A stretch of DNA of 64,000 bases from Acidipropionibacterium virtanenii. Its GTDB lineage: Bacteria > Actinomycetota > Actinomycetes > Propionibacteriales > Propionibacteriaceae. Below, piece by piece: positions 18,822-32,131 of this stretch (position 1 is its first letter; each line of letters opens with the position of its first letter). The stretch spans positions 1,116,001 through 1,180,000 of the forward strand of contig NZ_CP025198.1 of assembly GCF_003325455.1 (NCBI RefSeq), written 5' to 3'. The translations under genes were made by a program, and so were the position numbers. The notes under the pieces were generated by a model. That model was given only the letters and a program-made list of their open reading frames with translations. It had not been told where the DNA came from and made no database searches.

Positions 18822-19478
18822 TCAGCGGCGCAGGGCCTTTCGGGCCAGGGCGTTCCCGGCGAACTGGGCGGCCTGGACGATGATGATGATCGTCACGACA
18901 GCGATGAGGGTGACCGTCCAGTTGAACCGCTGGTAGCCGTACTGGATGGCGAACTGGCCGAGCCCGCCACCGCCGATGGCGCCGGCGATCGCCGTCATGT
19001 CGACGATGGCGATGAGCACGTAGGTGTAGCCCAGGACCAGTGGGCCCAGAGCCTCGCGGGCCACGACGTCGAAGAGGATTCGCCACGGGCCCGCACCCAT
19101 CGCCCTCGCAGCCTCGATGACGCCGGGATCGACGGTCACGAGGTTCTGCTCGACGATCCGCGACATGGCGAAGGTGGCGGCGATGCACAGCGGGAAGGTG
19201 GCCGCCTGGACGCCGATCGTGGTACCGACCACCTTCAGCGTCAGCGGGCCGATCGCCGTCATGAAGATGATGAAGGGGATCGGGCGCACGATGTTGACGA
19301 TGACGTTCAGTACCAGATTGGCCGTGCGGTTGGCCAGCAGCCCGCCGCGGCGGGTGGCGAACAGGAAGATACCCAGCACCAGTCCCAGGATTCCGCCGAC
19401 GATCAGGGTGATCACGGCCATGAACAGGGTCTGCCAGATGGCGTCCAGGTAGATGGGTCTCAGAGTGGTCCAGTCCAT
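18822..19478 (-). CDS. metI: methionine ABC transporter permease MetI
   Basis: A 218-residue permease with five or six membrane helices and the ABC-interaction loop EAARAMGAGPWRILFDVVAREALGP (EAA motif, about residues 138-160). It matches MetI-type permeases in length and in the opening, which inserts into the membrane without a signal peptide. It is the last gene of metQ-metN-metI; its ATG overlaps the metN stop by one base (TGATG). The metal or peptide permeases of the same superfamily are less likely given the MetQ/MetN neighbours. Confidence 0.93.
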   Translation of the reverse strand: MDWTTLRPIYLDAIWQTLFMAVITLIVGGILGLVLGIFLFATRRGGLLANRTANLVLNVIVNIVRPIPFIIFMTAIGPLTLKVVGTTIGVQAATFPLCIAATFAMSRIVEQNLVTVDPGVIEAARAMGAGPWRILFDVVAREALGPLVLGYTYVLIAIVDMTAIAGAIGGGGLGQFAIQYGYQRFNWTVTLIAVVTIIIIVQAAQFAGNALARKALRR

Positions 19479-20554
19479 CAGTCCCGTCCCTCCGTCGTCG
19501 ACGCCGGGCTGTCGGGGACGGTGTCGCCCGACAGGGAGCGCAGCAGCCGGGCCGCGTCCTCGACGTCGTGATCGGCGCCGCTCAACGCCAGGGTGTAGTT
19601 GCCCATGGCCCCTCCGCGCACCTCGATGACACCGCCGTGGACGATCCGGTAGTTGACGCCGCCCCGCCTGCCCAGTTCGGCCAACGCCGAACCGAAGGCG
19701 GCGGCATCGACGCTGGTGACGTCGACCAGGGTGGAGCCCGGATTCTCGGTGCTCAGCCTCTCCAGCTCCTCGGACCCGGGGTGCTGGCCGATGATGGTGG
19801 CCAGGAACCTCCGGGTGGTCTCTGCCGCCGGGGCGGCGAAGACCTGCCGGGCCGGACCGGACTCGACCAGTCTTCCGGCCTCCAGCACGCTCACCCGGTC
19901 GGCGATGGTGCGCACCACCTCCATCTCGTGGGTGATGACGATGACCGTGACCCCGAGTTCCTCGTTGATCCTGCGCAGCAGGCCGAGGACCCCGGCGGTG
20001 GTCTCCGGATCCAGCGCGGAGGTGGACTCGTCGGCCAGCAGGATGGTGGGCCGGGTGGCCAGCGCCCGAGCGATCCCGACCCGTTGCTTCTGGCCTCCCG
20101 AGAGCTGGTCGGGATGGGTCCACGCCTTCTCGGTGAGACCCACGAAGGAGAGCAGCTCGGTGACCCGGGCCCGCTCCTCGGTCTTCGACCACTTCGCCAG
20201 CTTCAGCGGATATGCGACGTTGTCGTAGATGGTCCGCGAAGCGAAGAGGTTGAACTGCTGGAAGATCATGCCGATGTCGGTGCGCAGCGGGCGCAGGGCC
20301 CGTTCGGGCAGCTGCGAGATGTCGGTGCGCTTGACGATCACGCGACCCCGGGTCGGCTTCTCAAGCCCGTTGATGAGCCGGACCAGGGTGGACTTGCCCG
20401 CCCCGGACTGCCCGATCACCGCCGAGATCTCACCGGCCCGGAAGTCCAGGTTGATGTCATCGAGAGCGGTGACCGGGCCCGATCGGGTCTGGAAGACCTT
20501 GCCGACGTGATCGAAGTGGATGATCGGATCGTCCATTGCGGCTCCGGTGGTCAC
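19478..20554 (-). CDS. metN: methionine ABC transporter ATP-binding protein MetN
   Basis: A 358-residue ATPase. It has Walker A GQSGAGKS near 49, Q-loop IFQQFN, signature LSGGQKQRVGIARALA, Walker B ILLADESTSALD and switch THEM. The C-terminal part (about 265-340) is a NIL domain, the regulatory domain through which methionine inhibits MetN in characterised importers. GTG 20554 overlaps the metQ stop as GTGA; ATG 20536 is an alternative start. It powers import with MetI and MetQ. Confidence 0.95.
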   Translation of the reverse strand: MTTGAAMDDPIIHFDHVGKVFQTRSGPVTALDDINLDFRAGEISAVIGQSGAGKSTLVRLINGLEKPTRGRVIVKRTDISQLPERALRPLRTDIGMIFQQFNLFASRTIYDNVAYPLKLAKWSKTEERARVTELLSFVGLTEKAWTHPDQLSGGQKQRVGIARALATRPTILLADESTSALDPETTAGVLGLLRRINEELGVTVIVITHEMEVVRTIADRVSVLEAGRLVESGPARQVFAAPAAETTRRFLATIIGQHPGSEELERLSTENPGSTLVDVTSVDAAAFGSALAELGRRGGVNYRIVHGGVIEVRGGAMGNYTLALSGADHDVEDAARLLRSLSGDTVPDSPASTTEGRD

Positions 20555-21528
20555 TTGAGTTCGGCCTGCAGGTCATCGAGGGCCTTCTGAAGATCGGCCT
20601 GTGACTTGCCGGTGACGACGTGTGCGGTGTTCCCGGACTCGGCGAGCACCGATTTCGTCACCTCCGGATCGTGCCAGATCCGGGCCACCTTCTTGTAGGT
20701 CGCATTGTTCTTGTCCTTGGCGCGGGCGGCGAAGATGTTGATATAGGGCTCGGCCTCCTTGCTGGACGGGTCGTCCTCGGCCAGGGCGGTGTCGGGGTCG
20801 ATCTTGGCGTCCACGGCGAATCCGTTGTTGATCACCGAGGCGTCGACGCTCGGCAGCGCGGTGACCGTCTGGGAGGCGTCGACCGCGGTGACGGTGACCT
20901 TCGACTTCGCCGCGACGACGTCGGCCGGGGTCGACAGCGGAGAGCCGCCGTCCTTGAGGGTCAGCAGGCCGGCCTTCTGCAGCAGCAGGAGCGCCCGGCC
21001 CTGGTTGGTGTCGTCATTCGGGATGGCGACCTTGCCGCCGGAGGGGATCTCGCTGACCTTCTTGTGGGTCTTGGAGTAGATCGACAGCGGCACGATGTAG
21101 GTGGAGTCCAGGGGCACCAGATTGTCGTTGTTCTCGTGGTTGTAGTTGGCCAGGAAGAAGATGTGCTGGAAGTAGTTGAGGTCGATCTGGCCCTGGGACA
21201 GCGCCCGGTTGGGCTGGTTGTAGTCGCTGAAGTCGACCTTCTCGATGGTGATCCCCTGGGCGGCGGCCTTCTTGATGAAGATGGGCCAGAACTTCGCACC
21301 CGCCTCGGTGGTGCCGATCTTGACGGTGACCTTCGCTCCGCCGGTGGCCGACTCGCCGCCGGCGGCGGAGCCCGAACCGCGCTGGGTGGCCCACACGATG
21401 GCGCCTGCGATGAGGGCGATCACGACGACGACGGCTGTGATGATGATTCCCCGGTGGCCGCCACCGGGCTTCTCAGGAAGCGCGGCGGGCTCTTCGGCGG
21501 GGGTGGGCTGATGGTCTGAGGTGCTCAT
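20551..21528 (-). CDS. metQ: methionine ABC transporter substrate-binding protein MetQ, helix-anchored
   Basis: A 325-residue NlpA/MetQ-family binding protein. The ligand-binding region begins near residue 68 (KVTVKIGTTEAGAKFWPIF) and includes the family pattern DFSDYNQPNRALSQGQIDLN and NYFQHIFFL. Instead of a lipoprotein signal with a Cys lipobox, the N-terminus has about 25 hydrophilic residues and one strong hydrophobic helix (IIITAVVVVIALIAGAIVWA), so it is probably held by an uncleaved membrane anchor. AGGAG precedes the ATG. It is the first gene of the operon, behind a leader of about 385 nt. Confidence 0.93.
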   Translation of the reverse strand: MSTSDHQPTPAEEPAALPEKPGGGHRGIIITAVVVVIALIAGAIVWATQRGSGSAAGGESATGGAKVTVKIGTTEAGAKFWPIFIKKAAAQGITIEKVDFSDYNQPNRALSQGQIDLNYFQHIFFLANYNHENNDNLVPLDSTYIVPLSIYSKTHKKVSEIPSGGKVAIPNDDTNQGRALLLLQKAGLLTLKDGGSPLSTPADVVAAKSKVTVTAVDASQTVTALPSVDASVINNGFAVDAKIDPDTALAEDDPSSKEAEPYINIFAARAKDKNNATYKKVARIWHDPEVTKSVLAESGNTAHVVTGKSQADLQKALDDLQAELK

Positions 21529-21692
21529 GGGAGTCTCCTGGACAAAGAGATGTGACCGGACACGGGCGGGGCCCGGGGGATGGATGAGGCCACGGGGGAT
21601 CGGTGCCGTAGGGGCCCGGGTCGTCGCGGGGGCGAGGAGGGCAAGGCGGACCGACCGGTCATGGCGGTGGTCCTGCTGGGCGCGGGGCCGGA

Positions 21693-21794
21693 TCAGCAGG
21701 TGCCGGACATTCGGCAACACATGGCGTCGCAGCCACACATCATCATCGACGCACGCCGGTCGGCGTGGACGCGATGAATGGTGGCGGTCGCCAT
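21693..21794 (-). CDS. Met/Cys-rich leader peptide of the metQNI operon
   Basis: A 33-residue reading frame with a good ribosome site (AGGAGA, 6 nt before ATG 21794), located in the metQ leader and ending 164 nt before metQ. The second half reads MMMCGCDAMCCRMSGTC, with five Met and five Cys in 17 residues. The first half includes HRVHADRRAS, reminiscent of the short Arg/His/Asp leader peptides annotated upstream of sulfur genes in actinobacteria. I infer control by ribosome stalling: when charged Met- or Cys-tRNA is scarce, the ribosome would pause and change the folding of the following GC-rich leader. No protein function beyond this is expected. Confidence 0.7.
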   Translation of the reverse strand: MATATIHRVHADRRASMMMCGCDAMCCRMSGTC

Positions 21795-21918
21795 GGTGTC
21801 TCTCCTGCGTTCGTGTGCCCGAAGGCCCATACCGGGGCTGCTGGAGTGTCTCGGCGGGCCGATGCCCGTGCCGATCCGCTGACCGAGCGGTGACACCCGG
21901 TCTCACAACCTGGACGCA

Positions 21919-21948
21919 AGCGTAGATGGGCCCGTGCGGCGATGTCAA
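21919..21948 (-). promoter_or_regulatory. metQNI promoter
   Basis: On the minus strand TTGACA (21948-21943), an 18-nt spacer and TACGCT (21924-21919) form a near-consensus promoter. Transcription would begin near 21912, about 118 nt before the leader peptide. The stretch between is rich in short inverted repeats (CCGCT/AGCGG, CGGGC/GCCCG); it does not match the SAM riboswitches I know. Confidence 0.7.
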
Positions 21949-31749: not shown

Positions 31750-31797
31750 CCTCGGACGTGGATCTCCGGCTGTGAAGGTGCATACTGGTCACGCACA

Positions 31798-31941
31798 CGT
31801 GCTCCGGGGTCGGTGAAAGTCCGAACCGGCGGTGACAGTCCGCGAACCGTTTTCGATGTCGGGGGAACACTCCTGGCAGAAGGCGGCCGAACCGGTGGAA
31901 ATCCGGTACCGACGGTGAAAGTCCGGATGGGAGGCAGCACG
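31798..31941 (+). promoter_or_regulatory. FMN riboswitch (RFN element) of the rib operon
   Basis: The closing stem is CGTGCT (31798-31803) with AGCACG (31936-31941). All conserved RFN blocks are present: GGGGTCGGTGAAAGTCCG, ACCGGCGGTGACAGTCCGCG, GGAAATCCGGTACCGACGGT, then GAAAGTCCGGATGGGAGGCA. FMN binding is expected to switch off ribD-ribE-ribBA-ribH. In the 190-nt stretch to ribD a hairpin at 32012-32035 (CCGGTCGTG/CACGACCGG) may be part of the expression platform. Confidence 0.97.
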
Positions 31942-32131
31942 AGGGCCCGCGCGGCGACGCGCCGGAATCGGGGTGCGCGGCCACGCCCGCACCCGCATCC
32001 GGTGGCCGACGCCGGTCGTGTCACCGCACGACCGGTTTCCCGCGCATCTGCGGCCGGGCACGATCGCCCGCCCTGGAAGGGCTCTGGCAACCCCGGGATC
32101 CGTGACGCTGCGGACCGGGAAGGGGTGCCAG

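Follow-up and report, generated by a model that had tools for sequence, protein, structure and literature searches.

A metL-type Met/Cys leader peptide as a probable cis-acting attenuator of the methionine importer operon of Acidipropionibacterium virtanenii

The region upstream of metQ in A. virtanenii raises the question of whether a short frame rich in Met and Cys codons controls the methionine importer operon metQNI, which amino acid it would read, and how the reading would be passed on to the downstream genes. Our comparisons indicate that the frame is probably a metL-type Met/Cys leader peptide that acts in cis as a bivalent attenuator of the operon. The features on which this proposal is built are given below; the window is the whole 64,000-nucleotide stretch of DNA that was analysed.

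21942-21947, minus strand: -35 element TTGACA of the leader/metQ promoter, read from the sequence
21919-21924, minus strand: -10 element TACGCT, with TAnnnT at similar spacing in relatives
21890-21906, minus strand: palindrome GTGAGACCGGGTGTCAC, just downstream of the inferred transcription start, a possible repressor operator
21806-21802, minus strand: leader Shine-Dalgarno sequence AGGAG, 7 nt before the ATG
21794-21693, minus strand: leader peptide frame, 33 codons and a stop, MATATIHRVHADRRASMMMCGCDAMCCRMSGTC*, kept upstream of metQ
21738-21746, minus strand: three consecutive Met codons, ATG ATG ATG, kept as MMM or MM in the organism's own genus (g1) and in genus g13
21708-21713, minus strand: conserved dicodon CGA-ATG (Arg-Met), 6 and 5 codons upstream of the stop
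21672-21700, minus strand: stop-codon hairpin CCTGCTG...CAGCAGG enclosing the leader stop, supported by covariation in 11 sequences
21540-21671, minus strand: C-rich, G-poor stretch from the hairpin to the metQ Shine-Dalgarno sequence, on its composition a candidate Rho loading region
21539-21535, minus strand: metQ Shine-Dalgarno sequence
20551-21528, minus strand: metQ, methionine-binding lipoprotein, the regulated gene (Pfam PF03180, NlpA/MetQ family, E 2.9e-66)
19478-20554, minus strand: metN, the second operon gene, encoding an ATPase with a NIL domain (Pfam PF00005 and PF09383)

Read on the minus strand from 21947 to 21528, the layout comprises TTGACA, a spacer of 17-18 nt, TACGCT, about 115 nt of leader, AGGAG and the frame, followed by a hairpin over the leader stop, about 130 nt of C-rich RNA, a second AGGAG and metQ. 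The sequence-only reading of this DNA had described a leader of about 385 nt with a well-started 33-codon frame, and both descriptions hold: the inferred start (about 21912) lies about 385 nt from the metQ ATG at 21528, and the AGGAG before the frame is present in all aligned leaders of g1 and g13. Its near-consensus promoter stands for the -35 element, which is perfect and conserved in most of the relatives aligned, but not for the -10 element, which matches the consensus at only three of six positions; for that reason a generic sigma-70 scan listed no promoter at the leader. The C-terminal 17 residues of the peptide include 5 Met and 5 Cys; when all six frames of the 64 kb are translated, only one of the 127,979 windows of 17 residues reaches this density, which is thus the highest there. 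A second frame, of 45 codons (21525-21662, minus strand), has AGGA upstream of its ATG and occupies the stretch between the stop hairpin and metQ, whose start it overlaps in ATGA; it was rejected as a candidate, since neither its ending nor the overlap is kept even in L002.

The expectation that the Met/Cys run would be conserved upstream of metQ orthologues is strongly borne out. By peptide search, each of the five g1 genomes has the leader frame before metQ, and a scan upstream of metQ in the family adds all nine genomes of g13 and two of the four of genus g28. Of 199 family genomes, 15 contain the nucleotide pattern CGAATGNNCNGCRCCTGCTGA, once each and always upstream of metQ, and a profile run against 397 genomes of the order returned only these g1 and g13 loci, plus one weak match that is not a leader. 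Comparable but diverged Met/Cys leaders are found in three further groups: at 15 of 15 strong MetQ loci of family f20 (consensus MSRASSDTARxMTTAxGRGMSMCPMRMRRCR), before metQ in family f40 (taken as Cellulomonadaceae from its named members Cellulomonas, Oerskovia, Isoptericola and Sanguibacter), and before metN in the Streptomyces-like metNIQ operons of family f19, at 18 of 18 loci. No such frame was seen upstream of metQ at the loci examined in families f3, f32 and f29. The frame stays open through length changes between leaders, and the frame, its ribosome-binding site and its Met/Cys-rich end are retained across families whose sequences no longer align. Two of these groups also carry elements of their own: in f20 (L154-L169), the leader start codon is preceded, at about 20-25 nt, by a conserved inverted repeat GACCACTGGTC, and in the Streptomyces-like leaders (L272-L289), TTTACT stands a few nt before the ATG, as in the leaderless type, and a conserved hairpin CTCGCGCCCCGAAGCGAG lies 3' of the stop.

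Within g13, synonymous divergence is 0.065 in the leader versus 0.465 in metQ. This synonymous constraint fits a function of codons and RNA better than an independently acting peptide and, on these comparisons, codons and RNA are conserved no less than the peptide itself. Since synonymous sites are also constrained, the pN/pS of 0.8 within the leader is uninformative, and we rejected it as proof of peptide selection.

A leader of this kind is already on record. In S. lividans TK24, metL (SLIV_29928), upstream of metNIQ, was reported from RNA-seq with a mapped transcription start, and that report names Met and Thr and, in the available part, makes no mention of CGA-AUG, of Cys codons as sensors or of a stop hairpin (PMC8079986). 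The peptide metL resembles the A. virtanenii leader in being Met/Cys-rich (MSTTSDRTPATEATTTPGARCMCRRMCAF), in preceding a methionine importer, in carrying Arg-Met near the stop and in having no typical Rho-independent terminator; the two differ in that metL initiates without a 5' UTR, whereas the A. virtanenii leader is led by a Shine-Dalgarno sequence, in their N-terminal sequences, and in operon order (metN-I-Q versus metQ-N). The A. virtanenii leader, like metL, is a short frame in cis with Met near the stop and Arg-Met a few codons before it. Because diverged leaders of this form precede metQ or metNIQ and one of them is metL itself, we regard the leader as metL-type rather than as a new kind; the earlier view of a Met/Cys leader peptide before the importer is to be corrected in this respect. 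Otherwise, Met-sensing leader peptides are nearly undescribed, the S. lividans entry being brief and the only one in the literature searched. Our search shows no earlier description of the CGA-AUG signature, the stop hairpin, the breadth of the distribution or the SAM-IV tandem treated below.

Most leaders contain an in-frame CGA-ATG near the stop, usually 5-6 codons before it. Specifically, it is present in g1 (5 of 5), g13 (9 of 9), g28 (2 of 2), f20 (10 of 15), Cellulomonadaceae (about 19 of 30) and f19 (18 of 18, at codons -5/-4, compared with -6/-5 in the A. virtanenii leader), and it is missing from both leaders of genus g17 (0 of 2), from five f20 leaders and from roughly one in three Cellulomonadaceae loci. 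As controls, a short upstream frame with CGA-ATG in phase close to its end was found at none of 50 metQ loci of other families, and about 76 named loci outside Cellulomonadaceae gave one match, in the wrong frame. CGA is rare, accounting for 10 of 160 Arg codons in the genes of the window.

In g1, g13 and g28, the Met that follows CGA never varies. Cys is frequent but variable; the L009 leader has two Cys, and the L006 leader has none at all and retains Met. In two Streptomyces-like leaders, the Met of CGA-ATG is the sole Met remaining in the tail. The spread of the dicodon, together with the loss of Cys and retention of Met in L006, points to the Met after CGA near the stop as the core of the proposed sensor, with Cys as an addition. 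Thus the mixed run of Met and Cys noticed earlier is present and conserved, but its two parts differ, Cys being usual and dispensable. The residues Arg-Met may matter besides the CGA codon, because the leader before the cys operon of this genome carries CGG-ATG in the corresponding position. We hypothesize that CGA is a slow codon that renders the following AUG sensitive. A fuller version, in which the dicodon is the actual Met sensor of actinobacterial importer leaders because slow decoding of its CGA in the P site leaves the following AUG hypersensitive to the charging of Met-tRNA, and in which some species stack this sensor behind SAM-IV and read SAM and charged tRNA-Met in series within one mRNA leader, is one that we consider possible but hold with considerable reserve.

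What would the position of the ribosome change? The inverted repeat CTGCTG/CAGCAG pointed out just after the stop proved sound: CCTGCTG (21700-21694), which runs into the stop TGA, pairs perfectly with CAGCAGG (21678-21672), so that the final codons and the stop (CCTGC TGA) pair with the downstream GCAGG. In an alignment of 11 g1 and g13 sequences, 92.5% of cells are paired and five pairs show double changes, a result matched in 1 of 500 shuffles and lost when the same alignment is slid (pairing at most 55%); as the sequences are mutually related and were hand-trimmed to the hairpin, we read these figures as support rather than proof. In L006, where the last codon has changed from TGC to CGC, the partner arm has changed with it from GCAGG to GCGGG. 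The leader's own Shine-Dalgarno sequence was also considered as the conserved partner of CCTGC and rejected, since in L006 the downstream arm alone co-changed. Most main-type f20 leaders have a stop-spanning hairpin of their own, TGCCGCTGACGC...GCGTCA...GCGGCA, and none is clearly present in g28, g17 and some f20 leaders. In the leaders compared, the stop-codon hairpin is the only one with covariation support.

Downstream of the hairpin, the 153 nt from the leader stop to the metQ Shine-Dalgarno sequence have a C content of 0.51 and a G content of 0.24, and the best 78-nt piece of the C-rich stretch ranks in the top 0.02% of the window. An excess of C over G follows the leader in 22 of 22 sequences and is stronger than upstream of leaderless metQ genes, although C-rich 5' regions are common in GC-rich genomes. 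A search at the leader for a U-tract intrinsic terminator and a mutually exclusive antiterminator found neither, so the classical pair of alternative folds envisaged earlier is not borne out.

These elements can be joined in a model of the switch. If charged tRNA-Met (or tRNA-Cys) runs short, the ribosome would stall in the leader, and most sharply when its A site holds the AUG that follows CGA; the leading edge of the ribosome would then extend to the 5' arm of the stop hairpin and keep the hairpin from forming, and expression would continue into metQNI. When Met and Cys are sufficient, the ribosome would finish and leave, the hairpin would form, the C-rich RNA would be left naked and expression would be cut off. 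By its geometry, a ribosome with the AUG of CGA-AUG in the A site would touch the 5' arm of the hairpin, and one at the MMM run would not. The off-step would most likely be Rho-dependent termination, which we favor tentatively; the C-rich, G-poor RNA between the leader stop and the first gene is of the type expected for such attenuators. Translational shut-off comes second to Rho, as the doubtful choice, and a weak intrinsic terminator is ranked third.

Classical attenuators provide a useful comparison. The enteric leaders of thr (Thr/Ile) and ilvGMEDA (Ile/Val/Leu) are multivalent, one leader reading more than one related amino acid, and use U-tract intrinsic terminators with alternative antiterminators. 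The A. virtanenii leader resembles them in offering one peptide for more than one amino acid and in placing codons of the regulating amino acids in a short frame with a ribosome-binding site, and differs in the terminator and antiterminator, none having been found here. Closer in lineage, Cys leader peptides precede cys operons in actinobacteria, including Mycobacterium, Propionibacterium acnes and, before cbs, Bifidobacterium (PMC1262725, PMC4633059). They share with the present leader runs of sulfur amino acid codons near the stop and the lack of a conserved terminator, Rho having been suggested; their runs are of Cys and precede biosynthesis genes, whereas here Met is conserved and the gene encodes an importer (PMC1262725, PMC4633059). 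Upstream of methionine operons, no conserved RNA regulatory structure was found in that work (PMC1262725).

Other explanations of the locus differ in what the frame would do. If the attenuation were translational, a stalled ribosome would free the metQ ribosome-binding site, as has been proposed for the poly-Cys leaders of mycobacteria; PMC13236596 cites translational attenuation of Cys leaders in M. smegmatis, and the lack of an intrinsic terminator agrees with this. We nevertheless judge it unlikely, because folding of 22 sequences with a ribosome set on MMM, CGA-AUG or the stop codon gave no consistent gain or other change in accessibility of the metQ Shine-Dalgarno sequence. Long-range pairing that hides this site was likewise rejected, the ribosome blocks having no consistent effect in the 22 sequences. 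A structured RNA element, either a riboswitch or a protein-binding leader in which the frame is incidental, could account for the low synonymous divergence of the leader and for the covarying hairpin, and SAM-IV does occupy the same position in some relatives. It is nonetheless improbable, given that the leader has no Rfam match, that the frame, ribosome site and Met/Cys end are kept across families that cannot be aligned, and that length changes keep the frame.

The two remaining explanations assign the activity to the peptide or deny it altogether. A nascent Met/Cys chain might bind metal or respond to oxidation and stall the ribosome, with tRNA charging unread, and the dense Met/Cys run, with a C-M-C-R-M-C pattern that recurs both in the cys operon leader and in metL of Streptomyces-like genomes, would suit such a sensor; however, the downstream genes are sulfur amino acid genes, the codon CGA and not the residues alone is fixed, and the Cys-free L006 leader retains the arrangement, which leaves this only a slight chance. 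Least probable of all, and hardly credible, is that the frame encodes a trans-acting small protein, or that it arose by chance where the 5' region is GC-rich. A pN/pS near 0.8 speaks for this reading, but the frame holds the densest Met/Cys stretch of the window, is always in cis with metQ and occurs once per genome by the CGAATG...TGA pattern. The cis-acting attenuator thus remains our preferred reading. The leader class spans several actinobacterial families, and its codon-level signature makes the proposed sensor directly testable.

The relation of the leader to SAM riboswitches bears on what it needs in order to act. As the sequence-only reading had said, there is no sign of a SAM riboswitch here: Rfam models gave none at the leader at the gathering threshold or at E<=5, no RF00634 in the window or in L001, and no SAM-IV (RF00634) above the cut-off in five genomes of the genus. 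In two g13 loci, L005 (970-1081) and L006 (997-1108), a full SAM-IV aptamer lies directly upstream of the same leader, scoring about 81 bits against a gathering threshold of 38 and ending about 35 nt before the leader start codon. Other actinobacteria have SAM-IV at the corresponding position upstream of metQ, and at two f29 loci and in Flexivirga it stands there instead of the leader. The earlier view that the leader needs no SAM riboswitch is corrected by L005 and L006: the leader is not simply a substitute for one. Because SAM-IV occurs either alone or in tandem with the leader, the two seem to replace each other or to stand in series, and the natural series of leader alone, SAM-IV alone and tandem shows an exchange of RNA-based sulfur control in evolution.

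Mixed Met/Cys leaders are not limited to metQ. In the same genome, VDDIRSAGLQNAQCAAAMSMSMCSRPCCRS lies before cysK and MQIEFGEHTAAHGRGAVARLTTCMCRMCC before the cys operon; both are kept in a second species of the genus, and the cys operon one also in a third.

L250, 1157-1246, A. virtanenii genome: cys operon leader, ending TTCMCRMCC
L259, from 1501, reverse complement: cysK leader, ending MSMSMCSRPCCRS

Weak matches to the cysK leader (L261-L265) proved on inspection not to be leaders. The palindrome downstream of the inferred metQ start has the form RTGAGAC-N3-RTSTCAY, reminiscent of McbR-type sites, and this form is common to the metQ promoter and the cysK and cys operon promoters (in L259 and L266) of the genome, which suggests that metQ, cysK and the cys operon may share a common repressor besides their leaders. 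Elsewhere in the window, an FMN riboswitch (RF00050, 89 bits) lies at 31796-31943 on the plus strand.
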